DNA of 64,000 nt from Lactobacillus intestinalis (GTDB taxonomy: Bacteria; Bacillota; Bacilli; Lactobacillales; Lactobacillaceae). The notes below the pieces were generated by a model. The model was not told where the DNA came from and did no database searches. It saw only the letters and a program-made list of their open reading frames with translations. Made by a program: the position numbers and the translations under genes. The stretch is from the NCBI RefSeq assembly GCF_024397795.1, contig NZ_CP072983.1:1426001-1490000 (forward strand), given 5' to 3'. Position 1 is the first letter of the stretch. Each line of letters opens with the position of its first letter. This document shows positions 14,911-32,355 of this stretch, one piece after another.

Positions 14911-14944
14911 AATAAAACCCTCCTAGGTCAAAGACCTAAGAGGG
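14911..14944 (-). terminator. First T-box terminator hairpin
   Basis: On the minus strand CCCTCTTAGGTC-TTT-GACCTAGGAGGG followed by TTTTATTTTT. It begins right after the first T-box unit and should stop transcription when the cognate tRNA is charged. Confidence 0.87.
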
Positions 14945-15181
14945 CGAAGAAATCCGCGGTTCCACCTCATTTTCACAATTAACTCACATTAATTGCCTTA
15001 ATAAGTTTACTAATAAACCTTCAGCTGTAACGGGCTAAATCCCGGATCTCTCTACTGAGTTTCAAGAAACCAACTCACAGATGTGTTTTCATTTAAATTG
15101 CTATCTTATTTCCACCATCAAAGATTCTCTATCAGCGTCATCTAAATTACTTATTCTGCTCTACGTCTTTTATTTTCTAAA

Positions 15182-25815: not shown

Positions 25816-25850
25816 AAAAAAATAAAGCTTGCATTATCTGCAAGCTTTAA
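25816..25850 (-). terminator. Terminator of the NERD gene
   Basis: On the minus strand AAAGCTTGCA-GATAA-TGCAAGCTTT, followed by ATTTTTTT. The stem overlaps the stop codon of the NERD gene. Confidence 0.85.
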
Positions 25851-28024
25851 AACATTGTGCCAACTAAAGTACTGATCACCACAGCCAGTGCAATTGGAAC
25901 TACAGCATCAAGATTTGTTTCTTCAATATGCTGTAAAGTTTTAATACGGTCACTATATCCAACTACAGCTTCATCAACAGTTTTTTCAGTCTTATCTAGT
26001 AGATTATTTTGTTGATGAACGACTTGGCTTAATTCATCTATTATATCCTTTACTTTTCCAGTGAGTTGCTTTTCTTCATCAGGAATATGATCAGTGAAAT
26101 AAGGTAAAATTGCATGTAAAGATTCATAAGTTTGATATTCTCTTTCAAATTCAATCAATTTTTCAACTAATTCACTTAAATCTGAAATAATCTTTTGAAG
26201 ATCCGCAATCCCCTTCAACTGATTCCAAATTTGTCCACTATATTCTTGTCCCTTTAAATCATTAAGATATGGGAAGAAATCATACCCCAATTGTTCTCTA
26301 TCTACTAATCTAGCATTTGGTTCAAGTGCAGCAGCCACCATCTTACGAGCATCGGCATCCAAATTAATGCCAGATGTATTACGGTGAATCACATGTCCAA
26401 TTTCACTAGGATTAATAATCAAACTGCGATCATATTCTCGATAAAAATTAGGATTATCAATTAAGAAATCTTGTTTTTGGGGATTATCACGATTTACAAT
26501 CACGATTAGGCTGCGGATAGCATCTTTATTTAAAATTTGTTCAACTGCATTTGAAGCAAAAAATCCCCGACTTGCAATTTTTAATTGATTATAAATAGCG
26601 TCTTTATGGAGAGTGATTTGCTTTCTAATTGCTGCCTTGTCAAGTTCATTTTTAGCTCGATAAATTCTGCCATCTTCAATATTGCGAGCCTTAGTTTCAA
26701 TGATAAAAATTCCTGCTGGGGTGATAGCAAGATGATCAATTTTAGTAGTAACTCCTTCTCCAAGAGGTAAAATCAAATTATTAATTATATAAACATCATC
26801 TGATTTTTCCAACTGCTTTACAACTTCAGCTTGAGCAGCATTTAAAGCCAAAATATCACTAAGGTGATTCCAAATCTTCTTTTTAGATTCTCCAGCAAAC
26901 ACCTCCACCGGTCTCAAAAACCAACTGAGATCAGTCAGTGACTTATATACACTGTAATTATTTTGTTTTAAAGCTTCTACTTTAGAATAAAGTTTTTCTA
27001 CTTCTTCGTCATAGTCAGAGTAAAGCTCATTTATAGTGCTAATTCCCTCTAAATTCTTGTCAGTTAAGTCATGATCAAGTTGCTCAGCAGGATTTTCTTC
27101 TTTTCCTTCTTTCATTCGACCAATGTATTCAGCTTCCTTAAGAGATTCAGCTGCTTGATCATCTGAAATTTTCTTATATTCAAACCAATTATAAGTACAA
27201 GTAGGAGTATTTTTCTTGATCTTATCAATTTCCTTAACTTTAGCAGCAATATCCCTTACATATTGATCTTTGATTACACCAATTTTGTCGGTCACATTGT
27301 ACAAATCATCATATTTTTTCAATGATAAGACAGTTCCACTTTCACCGTGAAATTCGCGCTTTTTGATATTGCCATCTTCATAAAGGGTCAACAAATAACC
27401 TGCTCTACTGATAGAAAATTCCCGTACTTGTTCAATTTTCCCATCAAGAGAGTAGACAATTTGATAATGACGAAAACCGTTTTTATCAAAAATATCCCGA
27501 ATGAGCAAGTCACCATATTTTGATCTTAAGACGTGATATGCTTGCTCATTATCCCCATCTTTATCAAAAATTTCATCAATTTTATCTAGTAAATCGACAC
27601 GCTTATTTTCTAAGTCAAGATATTTAGGATTAAAGTTTCCCTTAGTCTTTTCGATTTTTCCTTGAATTTGTAAAAGCTCGCTATAGTTCTTTTCCACACG
27701 ACTTCTACGCCAAAAATCATAGCCTAAATATTCTACAGCTAAAATCGCAATACTAATTACTAAAACCAGCCAAAATCTACTTCTTCCAAAATGAAGAACA
27801 GCAGAAATAATCCCCATAATAATCAGCAAAATAATTAATGGTACCCAAAAATTAGGTCTCTTAGCTTGGATTTTTTTAATTTCATTATCCAAGATTGAAG
27901 AAATCTTTCCATTAATTTGTTGGTATTTTTCTGATTCGGCAATTTTTTTATCTCCACTCATCTCTTTTTGAACGGCGATAATCTGTTGATCCAAATCTTT
28001 ATTTACAGTCACTGTGTTGTTCAC
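25847..28024 (-). CDS. NERD-domain membrane protein
   Basis: A 725-residue protein. Residues 1-60 are helical, two membrane helices lie at about 62-110, and a region with short repeats GKIEQVREFSISRAG and DGNIKKREFHGESG looks like an antitoxin- or MORN-like strand repeat. A NERD (nuclease-related) domain sits in the middle (about 385-520): LILPLGEGVTTKIDHLAITPAGIFIIETKARN gives the Asp and ExK residues of a PD-(D/E)XK fold. The rest is coiled coil with a final hydrophobic segment (VVPIALAVVISTLVGTMF). NERD proteins occur in DNA processing and some defence systems. Its place near an Abi gene and a nuclease operon is suggestive only. Confidence 0.78.
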   Translation of the reverse strand: MNNTVTVNKDLDQQIIAVQKEMSGDKKIAESEKYQQINGKISSILDNEIKKIQAKRPNFWVPLIILLIIMGIISAVLHFGRSRFWLVLVISIAILAVEYLGYDFWRRSRVEKNYSELLQIQGKIEKTKGNFNPKYLDLENKRVDLLDKIDEIFDKDGDNEQAYHVLRSKYGDLLIRDIFDKNGFRHYQIVYSLDGKIEQVREFSISRAGYLLTLYEDGNIKKREFHGESGTVLSLKKYDDLYNVTDKIGVIKDQYVRDIAAKVKEIDKIKKNTPTCTYNWFEYKKISDDQAAESLKEAEYIGRMKEGKEENPAEQLDHDLTDKNLEGISTINELYSDYDEEVEKLYSKVEALKQNNYSVYKSLTDLSWFLRPVEVFAGESKKKIWNHLSDILALNAAQAEVVKQLEKSDDVYIINNLILPLGEGVTTKIDHLAITPAGIFIIETKARNIEDGRIYRAKNELDKAAIRKQITLHKDAIYNQLKIASRGFFASNAVEQILNKDAIRSLIVIVNRDNPQKQDFLIDNPNFYREYDRSLIINPSEIGHVIHRNTSGINLDADARKMVAAALEPNARLVDREQLGYDFFPYLNDLKGQEYSGQIWNQLKGIADLQKIISDLSELVEKLIEFEREYQTYESLHAILPYFTDHIPDEEKQLTGKVKDIIDELSQVVHQQNNLLDKTEKTVDEAVVGYSDRIKTLQHIEETNLDAVVPIALAVVISTLVGTMF

Positions 28025-30325: not shown

Positions 30326-31276
30326 CTACTGTCGAAATTTTGGATTTTCTAACCAATCATTAGGAAATCCCATAGCTGACAGAATTTCATCAATTTTAAT
30401 TGAGCTTAAATGATTACTTAAAAAATTCAATTTCTTTCTAATTGTATTACTTAAAATTCGATACTCAGTAGGACTTAAAAAACATTGCATACTAATTAAA
30501 ACCGAATATGCATACTTACGTGAATCTGTATTTTTAACTCCTGAAAGTTTATCTAAGCTAGCAAAATATTTAGAATCTGCTCTACATCTAAATTTCAAAA
30601 GTCGATTATTATGAGCACAAATATTTCTGAGTTCACGAATATTTTCAATAAAGGACATCATAATTTCTGGAGTAAAATGTTCTTGAATGGGTCCTATATT
30701 ATCTGTAATAAACTCAAGAAGATCTTTACAAATATTATTTTGAACCGTTCTTTTGGAATTCTTAATTAGAGAACATAATTGTCCAAAATCTAAAAACTCT
30801 ACTATTACCCAAATTGGTACATCGTCATATTTTTTTACATAATGATAAATAGGGGTATTAGGTTTATTCTTATAAAAATTAATTACTCGAGTTAAATCAC
30901 TAATAGTCCTTCCAACCGTTAACACCTTATTCGGATTATAAGAATTGATATCTAAACAAGCATATCTTTTACCATCAAATTCTTGAGCAAAGTTATACGC
31001 AAAAATAGATTTTAAATGATGCTCTACATTAATAATCGCATTAAAAAAGGCTTGCTTTAATTGTTTATCACAAAAATAGAGTTGACTCACTTCATCAAAA
31101 GTTGTCCCTGAAATAAATTGATCCTGACTTTCTTGAAAGTATTTACTATAACCGTTAATAATATTGTAATAATTATTAGACTTTAAGTACTTTTTTGCAT
31201 GGTCAATATTATTAAAAGTCAGGCCTCTTGCTTTTAAAAGCATAATTTGTTCATCAATTGTTTTAAATTCTTTCAC
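30326..31276 (-). CDS. Abi_2 (AbiD/AbiF-type) HEPN abortive-infection protein
   Basis: A 316-residue helical protein of the Abi_2 family. The N-terminus KTIDEQIMLLKARGLTFNN and NNYYNIINGYSKYF are hallmarks, and IRELRNICAHNNRL gives the HEPN ribonuclease motif Rx4H (Arg217, His222). Family members stop phage growth by RNA cleavage or cell dormancy. The start is a GTG at 31276 with no ATG alternative nearby. Its Shine-Dalgarno AGAGGTG (near 31291-31285) lies in the 3' arm of a hairpin, followed by seven T residues that touch the GTG, so translation and transcription both appear restrained. A structured RNA region lies directly upstream. Confidence 0.87.
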   Translation of the reverse strand: MKEFKTIDEQIMLLKARGLTFNNIDHAKKYLKSNNYYNIINGYSKYFQESQDQFISGTTFDEVSQLYFCDKQLKQAFFNAIINVEHHLKSIFAYNFAQEFDGKRYACLDINSYNPNKVLTVGRTISDLTRVINFYKNKPNTPIYHYVKKYDDVPIWVIVEFLDFGQLCSLIKNSKRTVQNNICKDLLEFITDNIGPIQEHFTPEIMMSFIENIRELRNICAHNNRLLKFRCRADSKYFASLDKLSGVKNTDSRKYAYSVLISMQCFLSPTEYRILSNTIRKKLNFLSNHLSSIKIDEILSAMGFPNDWLENPKFRQ

Positions 31277-31361
31277 AAAAAAACACCTCTACAAAATAAT
31301 AGAGGTGTTTTTCCGCAACGGCCTCACGTAGAGTCCACCGCCACTCTTTCTTACCTCTATT
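31277..31361 (-). ncRNA. Structured RNA/leader directly upstream of the Abi gene
   Basis: Between the promoter and the GTG lie about 75-85 nt that fold well. From 5' there is AATAGAGGT (31361-31353), a hairpin AGAGT-GGCGGTGG-ACTCT, a short stem CCG-TTG-CGG, then ACACCTCTA and TAGAGGTGT, forming a 9-bp terminator-like hairpin (31308-31283) followed by TTTTTTT. GGCGG in the first loop can pair with CCGTT further on, a possible pseudoknot. ACCTCTATT can pair with either the first AATAGAGGT or the 3' arm TAGAGGT, so two folds compete. Structured RNAs upstream of abiF genes are known (an AbiF RNA motif exists in Rfam, recalled not checked). This may be an antitoxin RNA. Confidence 0.65.
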
Positions 31362-31386
31362 TTATTATTTATTTATTTAAAGTCAA
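31359..31386 (-). promoter_or_regulatory. Candidate promoter of the Abi RNA and gene
   Basis: TTGACT (31386-31381), 16 nt, then TAAAAT (31364-31359). Transcription would start near 31351, just inside the AATAGAGGT repeat, so whether that repeat is in the RNA depends on the exact start. Confidence 0.6.
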
Positions 31387-31440
31387 TCATAACATACAAA
31401 TTAATGGTAATGATCTCAGATTCTACTTCTACCCACCTAA

Positions 31441-31467
31441 AAAATCAGCACCTCAAGTGCTGATTTT
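31441..31467 (-). terminator. Terminator of galU
   Basis: AAAATCAGCAC-CTCAA-GTGCTGATTTT, an 11-bp stem with a T run on the minus strand (A run 31439-31444). It separates galU from the Abi unit. Confidence 0.87.
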
Positions 31468-31473
31468 ATCGAA

Positions 31474-32355
31474 TTATTTTTGTAATTTCTTACTTAAGTC
31501 AATGATGTACTTCTTCAAGGCATCCTTAGTTTCAGGGTGGCGCAAGCCGTATTGAATGGAAGTTTCAAGATAGCCTTCCTTGTTACCAACATCGAAACGT
31601 TGACCGTTAAACACATGAGCAAAAACGCGTTGGGTCTTGTTCATAGTGTCGATGGCATCAGTTAATTGAATTTCGCCACCACGACCTGGTTTTTGTGTTG
31701 CCAAAATATCGAAAATTTCTGGAGTAAGCAAGTAACGTCCAATAATTGCCAAATCACTTGGAGCTTTAGCAACTGGTGGCTTTTCCACAAATGACTTAAC
31801 GTTGTAAAGATCATCGTTGATTTTACCTTCAGGGGAAATCACACCATATTTAGAAACTTCCTCATGTGGCACCTTCATAACGGCTAAAGTTGGAGCATGA
31901 GTTTGATTGTAATCATTAATTAGCTGCTTAGTTAGAGGCACTTCATCACGCATCAAATCATCGCCAAGCATAACGACGAATGGTTCATCCCCCACGAAAC
32001 TACGCGCACGGAAAATCGCATCCCCCAAACCAGCTGGATGTGGTTGACGAGTGTAGTACAAGTTCACACCTAAGTCCGTAATTTCTTCAGTCAACTTAAG
32101 CAATTCAACTTTACCCGTATCCTTCAAATCTTGTTCCAATTCAGGATTTGAATCAAAATGATTTTCAATAGCACGTTTATTCTTACCAGTGACGATCAAA
32201 ATGTCTTCGATTCCTGACTTCTTAGCCTCTTCAACAATAAATTGAATGGTTGGCTTGTCCACAATTGGTAACATTTCCTTTGGCATCGCCTTGGTTGCAG
32301 GCAAAAATCTGGTTCCAAGACCCGCTGCAGGAATAACAGCTTTTCTAACCTTCAT
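31474..32355 (-). CDS. galU: UTP-glucose-1-phosphate uridylyltransferase
   Basis: A 293-residue nucleotidyltransferase that makes UDP-glucose, the precursor for UDP-galactose, exopolysaccharide and teichoic acid glycosylation. [23 protein letters not shown] is the nucleotide-binding signature, and MLGDDLM and FVEKPP complete the site. The frame opens at 32391, but GGGAGA lies before the ATG at 32355 (MKVRKAVIP), which is the usual start of the family. It is transcribed alone and is separate from the sugar operons, which it should feed. Confidence 0.97.

Follow-up and report, generated by a model that had tools for sequence, protein, structure and literature searches.

A conserved leader RNA with a candidate promoter-coded antiterminator precedes an AbiF/AbiD-type HEPN gene in Lactobacillus intestinalis and recurs without the gene in phages

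Results and Discussion

We propose, with a probability of about 0.58, that the abi locus of Lactobacillus intestinalis is an RNA-antitoxin/HEPN-toxin module of the AbiF/AbiD group whose attenuator is coded by the module's own promoter. The sequences show the conserved parts of the module, the covariation of its helices and the position relative to the promoter of P1, the complementarity between the -10 region and the terminator 5' arm; each of the regulatory consequences described below is inferred. The small folded RNA most likely keeps the toxin gene off, its role as RNA antitoxin being drawn from published AbiF systems, and the abi gene product is probably a self-poisoning protein that protects against viruses. 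How the RNA partners of AbiF/AbiD proteins set the balance between toxin and antitoxin is an open question in the field, and the proteins themselves are described as proposed ancestors of Cas13 (PMC12165695, PMC12737573).

The window, that is, the whole stretch of DNA analysed, comprises 64,000 nt of contig NZ_CP072983.1 (positions 1,426,001-1,490,000), and all coordinates are counted within it (Table 1). L-numbers denote loci and G-numbers denote genomes of the comparison set.

Table 1. Positions in the window of the abi gene and the elements of its leader.
Feature	Position	Strand	Basis
Abi_2/AbiF-AbiD HEPN protein, 316 aa, GTG start	30326..31276	-	ORF, Pfam, PADLOC, PDB match, motif
R-N-I-C-A-H motif of the Abi protein	residues 217-222 (R217-H222)		
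-35 box TTGACT of the proximal (antitoxin) promoter	31381..31386	-	sequence, promoter parse
-10 box TAAAAT, 16-nt spacer	31359..31364	-	sequence, promoter parse
P1 strand AATAGAGGT, overlapping -10 box and discriminator, complementary to terminator 5' arm	31353..31361	-	complementarity statistics
Predicted +1	~31352	-	inferred from position
P2 helix, 5' strand GTGGCGG	31338..31344	-	fold and covariation
P3 hairpin CTC-TACGT-GAG	31323..31333	-	covariation
P2 helix, 3' strand CCGTTGC	31315..31321	-	covariation
Intrinsic terminator, hairpin 31311-31280 and 7-T run 31283-31277	31277..31311	-	sequence, locus parse
ACCTCTATT, part of terminator 5' arm and loop, alternative partner of P1 strand	31298..31306	-	complementarity
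Shine-Dalgarno AGAGGTG within terminator 3' arm	31284..31290	-	sequence

The abi gene and its surroundings

A preliminary description of this DNA had identified an Abi_2/AbiF-type HEPN gene with an Rx4H motif and a GTG start codon, and both the assignment and the start are borne out. The window protein matches Pfam Abi_2 (E 2.6e-41, 142.4 bits against a curated cut-off of 25.6) and PADLOC AbiD (1.5e-55) and is the sole Abi_2 match in its genome. All 15 of the relatives aligned share R217, N218, C220, A221 and H222 without variation, and we take the R-X4-H arrangement to be the HEPN motif. Over residues 4-313 the protein is also homologous by sequence to the 'Abi family protein' of PDB 8vz6 (E 1e-13). 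This entry is given in a review as the PbAbiF-ncRNA complex (PbAbiF-AbiFr), in which PbAbiF is bound to its ncRNA (PMC12737573); the comparison with the window is one of proteins.

The gene upstream of abi is galU, seemingly with a terminator of its own (both by eye), and a beta-lactamase-family ORF lies downstream. Of ten phage records examined, eight are from Streptococcus, and in 6 of these 8 an integrase gene lies within 1.2 kb of abi. Further downstream of abi in the window is a gene for a 725-aa protein with a NERD nuclease-related domain (25847-28024, minus strand), with two listed ORFs of the same strand between, and the window also contains a T-box leader (14937-15172, minus strand, 112 bits).

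A covarying core followed by a terminator that holds the Shine-Dalgarno sequence

We obtained 42 distinct leaders upstream of the genes of relatives, leaving out L085 (30% identity) and lacking upstream sequence for L094. The 41 that were parsed (L079, a near copy of L095, was left out) comprise 31 non-redundant clade A loci, four near copies and six loci of the more distant clade B. A promoter-like -35/-10 pair was picked in each of them, and those of L072 and L065 were reset by hand. The relatives have a common architecture, in which a TTGACA/TATAAT-like promoter is followed by a 7-bp helix (P2) around a hairpin with a UACG-type loop (P3), a linker and a terminator; the promoter lies 13-18 nt from P2 in 23 of the 27 leaders measurable by script. 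The structured RNA noted earlier upstream of abi is therefore conserved in relatives, and the 99-nt leader of the window folds more stably than its shuffles (z -5.9, 0/200).

Covariation of the stems among homologues, named in the preliminary description as a check, is found for both helices. Counted over 25 of the 31 clade A loci (without L034 and L055, and without L071, L077, L089 and L096 because of their irregular helices) and with the register of L028, L029 and L066 set by hand, a bias that favours pairing, P2 is paired in 164 of 175 cells against a shuffle mean of 137.6 (z 7.7, 0/20,000) and P3 in 93 of 100 against 86.5 (0/20,000). The suggested pairing of GGCGG with CCGTT is thus real, but both fold and covariation place it in the nested helix P2 (31344-31338 with 31321-31315) around P3, and the pseudoknot that had been considered possible is rejected.

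The terminator hairpin, first described as a perfect 9-bp stem (31308-31283), is present but longer, with 13 bp formed by 31311-31299 and 31292-31280. It does hold the Shine-Dalgarno sequence in its 3' arm, and seven T do reach the GTG start codon, as had been stated. In 25 of the 31 clade A loci, and in none of the six of clade B, the terminator 3' arm contains a Shine-Dalgarno match of at least 4 nt, and all but L064 and L078 (29 of the 31) have an in-frame start no more than 12 nt from the T-run. This placement would suit a translational lock opened by a factor, for which lactococcal AbiD1, where phage Orf1 or cold releases an RBS hairpin, is a precedent; the short leader of AbiD1, a gene of the AbiD/F group, likewise holds a terminator and a sequestered RBS (PMC2661086). 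In AbiD1, however, the lock is described as a separate, weak, AU-rich stem-loop downstream of the terminator, with translational activation by Orf1 (PMC2661086), whereas the module here has no known trigger factor; a lock of this kind would also leave P1 unexplained, and we regard it as quite improbable.

Other Abi_2 subfamilies (L035-L041, L042-L047, L051, L052, L018-L022) have other short hairpin RNAs and terminators upstream of the gene, as read by eye, and several of these may be undescribed RNA classes.

Relation to known antitoxin RNAs

The order of noncoding RNA, terminator and toxin gene is that of type III toxin-antitoxin systems. Tandem repeats, a feature of type III antitoxins, were not seen in the leaders, which by eye have a single core per RNA. 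The preliminary description had also proposed a search with the Rfam abiF model (RF03085), and this search gives no support for membership: RF03085 is absent among the Rfam matches up to E 10 for window 31200-31480 and gave no match at the gathering score in 20 loci, while phage phiC2, the positive control, matches with 37.6 bits against a gathering cut-off of 37. A scan of the genus with the same model matched none of 75 genomes and carries no weight alone, its controls also being without a match. Membership in RF03085 is rejected for the leader, and because the window and 20 loci lack a match that phiC2 has, the leader RNA belongs to a class other than RF03085, attached to the same toxin family.

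A close parallel is C. difficile, where AbiF is reported to be toxic and to be neutralised by its upstream RNA, RCd22, deletion of which raises abiF expression 17-fold (PMC12373285). Both loci have an upstream promoter, a structured RNA, a terminator and, downstream, a gene for an Abi_2 HEPN protein. RCd22 is described as containing two RF03085 motifs, with the RBS following the terminator (PMC12373285), in contrast to the single, different core, the Shine-Dalgarno sequence inside the terminator and the P1 complementarity on the -10 box in the window.

The -10 region is complementary to the terminator

Within the window, ACCTCTATT can pair either with AATAGAGGT or with the terminator 3' arm, and this competition of three strands (P1 strand, terminator 5' arm and loop, terminator 3' arm) is conserved. 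Over 31 loci, P1 complementarity scores 9.71 within a locus versus 6.89 across loci (z 10.1, 0 of 20,000 permutations). The P1 strand is more complementary to the 5' arm and loop (9.10) than identical to the loop and 3' arm (6.10), with the former above the latter in 29 loci, equal in one and below in one. Start sites lie about 7 nt after the -10 box, at position 13 counted from the first base of the hexamer, and in this numbering pairing extends over positions 2-11 of the -10 region in 22-30 of the 31 loci (27-30 at positions 4-9) and drops to 14 one position ahead of the predicted +1, at position 12 (5-14 at positions 12-20). Clade B gives no P1 signal (z 1.0, 3481/20,000); P1 thus accompanies the design with the Shine-Dalgarno sequence in the terminator, both being absent from clade B.

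Since the P1 strand ends at the predicted +1, a transcript from the module's own promoter could not make the switch. It would lack the P1 strand, which would be kept solely in transcripts from upstream. The two exclusive folds proposed in the preliminary description therefore stand as pairings, conserved in 31 loci, but not as a switch inside the short RNA. The repeat pair is likewise kept elsewhere, in a comparison that covers other species rather than strains of L. intestinalis. On this comparative sequence evidence, two mutually exclusive pairings appear to have been kept by evolution.

When the RNA is cut at the terminator loop, at least 6 P1 pairs are expected in all 31 loci, with a mean of 10.9 pairs with the locus's own strand versus 6.4 with strands from other loci, and in every locus but L064 (30 of 31) the own strand exceeds the mean that the foreign strands give there. 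For the full-length long RNA, equilibrium folding favours the terminator in 28 of 31 loci. This counts against P1 unless it acts during transcription, and P1 would thus be a co-transcriptional antiterminator at best; the exceptions are L065 and L076, where P1 prevails and the abi genes contain in-frame stops, and L031, which is mixed. RNA that starts after the -10 region forms the terminator with a mean pair probability of at least 0.66 in 31 of 31 loci.

From these parts the following mechanism can be proposed. The proximal promoter (31386-31359) would start an RNA of about 75 nt, consisting of the P2-P3 core and the terminator, that would be terminated, accumulate as the antitoxin and, as in published AbiF systems, bind the HEPN protein, while the Shine-Dalgarno sequence in the terminator 3' arm would leave leaky transcripts from this promoter poorly translated. 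Transcripts from upstream would carry the -10 box and discriminator as RNA; once the 5' arm and loop of the terminator emerged, this RNA would pair with them, hinder termination and leave the Shine-Dalgarno sequence free, so that toxin would be made. We hold tentatively, at somewhat short of even odds, the joint reading that the -10/discriminator sequence doubles as an antiterminator, such that what becomes of a transcript depends on where it starts (antitoxin RNA from the module's own promoter, translatable toxin mRNA from upstream), and that toxin-less phage copies of the RNA beside lysis and packaging genes are AbiF inhibitors. If true, an antiterminator coded by the promoter would offer a simple means of obtaining both RNAs from one stretch of DNA. 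Neither a promoter-overlapping antiterminator nor orphan RNAs of AbiF type were found among the best matches in the open-licence literature, as judged from titles and the starts of abstracts.

Two other accounts of the complementarity bear on this reading. In a plain type III-like module, one promoter and a leaky terminator would yield toxin by rare read-through, and the complementarity would have no regulatory role. RCd22, described with one promoter, a terminator and a long read-through transcript (PMC12373285), is a precedent for such a module, and RNA that starts at the own promoter is indeed predicted to form the terminator throughout. Such a module leaves unexplained why the -10 region is complementary to the 5' arm and loop of the terminator and why this complementarity is absent from clade B and from the orphan RNAs described below, and we consider this account unlikely. 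Alternatively, the inverted repeat might act at the DNA level or serve an antisense promoter in the terminator loop, where a -10-like hexamer is frequent on the bottom strand (mean 4.1 of 6). A -35 signal is absent at 16-18 nt (mean 2.0-2.2 of 6, versus 2.1-2.3 at 19-22 nt), on which ground the antisense promoter was rejected. The mismatch types in P1 are compatible with DNA pairing, G-U and A-C mismatches numbering 16 and 14, respectively (p 0.49); this count does not tell RNA from DNA pairing and was discarded as a criterion. Taken as a whole, the DNA-level or antisense explanation seems very doubtful. The promoter-coded antiterminator remains our preferred reading, and transcription from upstream is a part of it.

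Transcription from upstream and LexA-like boxes

The largest upstream ORF (at least 100 codons, by script) runs in the direction of abi in 28 of the 30 clade A loci that were scored, in 5 of 6 clade B loci and in 25 of 37 from other Abi_2 subfamilies (clade A versus other subfamilies, p 0.014, the latter not made non-redundant). In Streptococcus phage IPP38, the gene upstream of the abi module encodes a CI-like repressor. A prophage repressor transcript is a possible upstream source if transcript origin decides fate, as is an SOS promoter in L029 and L030. L029, one of the two exceptions to co-directionality, and its relative L030 have a distal promoter (TTGTTC-17-TATAAT) with the box CGAAC(A/G)CATATTCG in its spacer, a LexA-type box 63 nt before the proximal -10 box. 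Their genomes (G014 and G018) carry a perfect CGAACN4GTTCG, a form that we take to be the LexA consensus, just upstream of Y-family polymerase genes. Sites of the form CGAACN4RTTCG are not above a backwards-pattern control in either genome (1+3 versus 1+2 in G014; 2+2 versus 6+7 in G018).

Across loci, LexA-like boxes matching at least 11 of 13 positions within 100 nt occur in 4 of 37 (0.39 expected, 0/150 simulations), with no clear excess at 10 of 13 (6 versus 3.4 expected, 15/150). CGAACN4GTTCG has no occurrence in the window's genome, and the best LexA-like site of the window (11/13) lies 255 nt from the -10 box (p ~0.09). Together with the terminator that galU seems to have, this speaks against the mechanism proposed above. 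LexA/SOS control of the module would hold at best for a minority of loci. L029, L030, L055, L060 and L076 have boxes of at least 11/13 in the 100 nt that precede the proximal -10 box, which suggests SOS control in some loci.

Orphan copies of the RNA

A covariance model built from 27 leaders was run on 75 genomes of the genus and 397 of the family. In the genus, 27 genomes have a match at E 0.001, and 22 matches reach E 1e-7 or better. The 20 obtained as loci at first comprise 8 with an Abi_2 gene or remnant, all of them training loci or near copies, and 12 without (L115-L117 are one sequence in three genomes, and L124 is weak); the remaining two, L175 and L176, are also without Abi_2. The family scan gave a match at E 1e-7 in 27 genomes and 18 new loci, 10 with Abi_2 sequence and 8 without. 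Finally, a search of IMG/VR with a core pattern returned 26 stretches, 14 with Abi_2 and 12 without (L132 and L146 are one sequence). In eleven of these 12, six or all seven positions of P2 pair, although the pattern leaves most of them free, and the covariance-model E-values are 2e-7 or better, flattered by preselection; the twelfth, L135, fails both. Two further core patterns gave 1 and 0 stretches in viral_contigs, the first of them adding the orphan L174. Absence of Abi_2 here means no tblastn match at 0.01 with 34 clade proteins, a definition that a very divergent Abi_2 could escape. Some orphans may be plain remnants of decayed modules; L153 and L158, for example, keep by eye the apparent start of a decayed abi gene. 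G048 contains both a gene-linked RNA (L105) and a prophage orphan (L175).

Several of the orphans lie among phage genes. L119 and L121 directly follow a prophage endolysin gene, L134 lies 460 nt from one, and L175 follows an amidase-like ORF (by eye), while the single sequence L145/L164, L127 (with an ORF between) and L174 (by eye) lie ahead of terminase genes. L166 follows a late transcriptional activator, L165 is flanked by a CI-like repressor and an integrase-like ORF, L168 precedes an integrase-like ORF (by eye), and L132/L146 lies 6 nt after a major head protein. Chromosomal orphans lie near an M48 peptidase gene in L116 (tested) and in L113, L115, L117 and L176 (by eye).

The orphans lack P1, scoring 4.70 (n=20) versus 7.37 in toxin-linked loci (n=27; 4 of the 31 were not parsed by the script), with p 2.6e-5, as expected if P1 serves toxin expression. 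The 31 orphans entered were reduced to 20 by dropping four copies, L135, three without a terminator hairpin and three possible remnants.

The phage orphan RNAs are candidate decoys that may disarm AbiF and, if so, would be natural inhibitors of it. The pseudo-ToxI of phage phiTE is likewise a phage-borne sequence resembling an RNA antitoxin without a toxin; its toxin and RNA are unrelated to those here and its function is reported as demonstrated (PMC3475682), whereas the orphans are known from sequence. Racr RNA anti-CRISPRs are similarly solitary viral copies of a defence-system RNA but, as described, target CRISPR-Cas (PMC10651486). Against the decoy reading, a blastn search of orphans L119 and L127 in 50,697 phage records found no further orphan: L119 matched by its core alone in seven pneumococcal phage records, a group with a linked gene, and the matches of L127, in two records, cover 34 bases that lie outside the core.

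Phage 712 is reportedly protected from AbiF by a DNA region of phage sk1. The orphan RNAs suggest an RNA explanation for this report, although an 18-letter motif (3 mismatches), taken from the RNA that precedes an Abi gene on a lactococcal plasmid, gave no match in phage sk1, and a blastn search of the phage collection with this RNA gave none either. The 1-kb noncoding region of sk1 does contain stretches similar to a T-arm-like sequence, GGTTCGATTCC, that by eye lies within about 60 nt upstream of the orphan in the phage loci L127, L130, L145, L166 and L174. ARAGORN predicted no tRNA at this spot in L127, L130, L145 and L166, and placed a tRNA gene further upstream in L130 and L145. The orphan RNA might be released by tRNA-processing enzymes.

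The RNA of L138 keeps P1-like complementarity (score 7) without an Abi_2 match and is followed by a RhuM-like ORF (by eye). By eye, the orphan of L122 (G028) lies downstream of galU, the neighbourhood that the module has in the window, with a HicB-like ORF after it; this is a possible case of replacement at one site.
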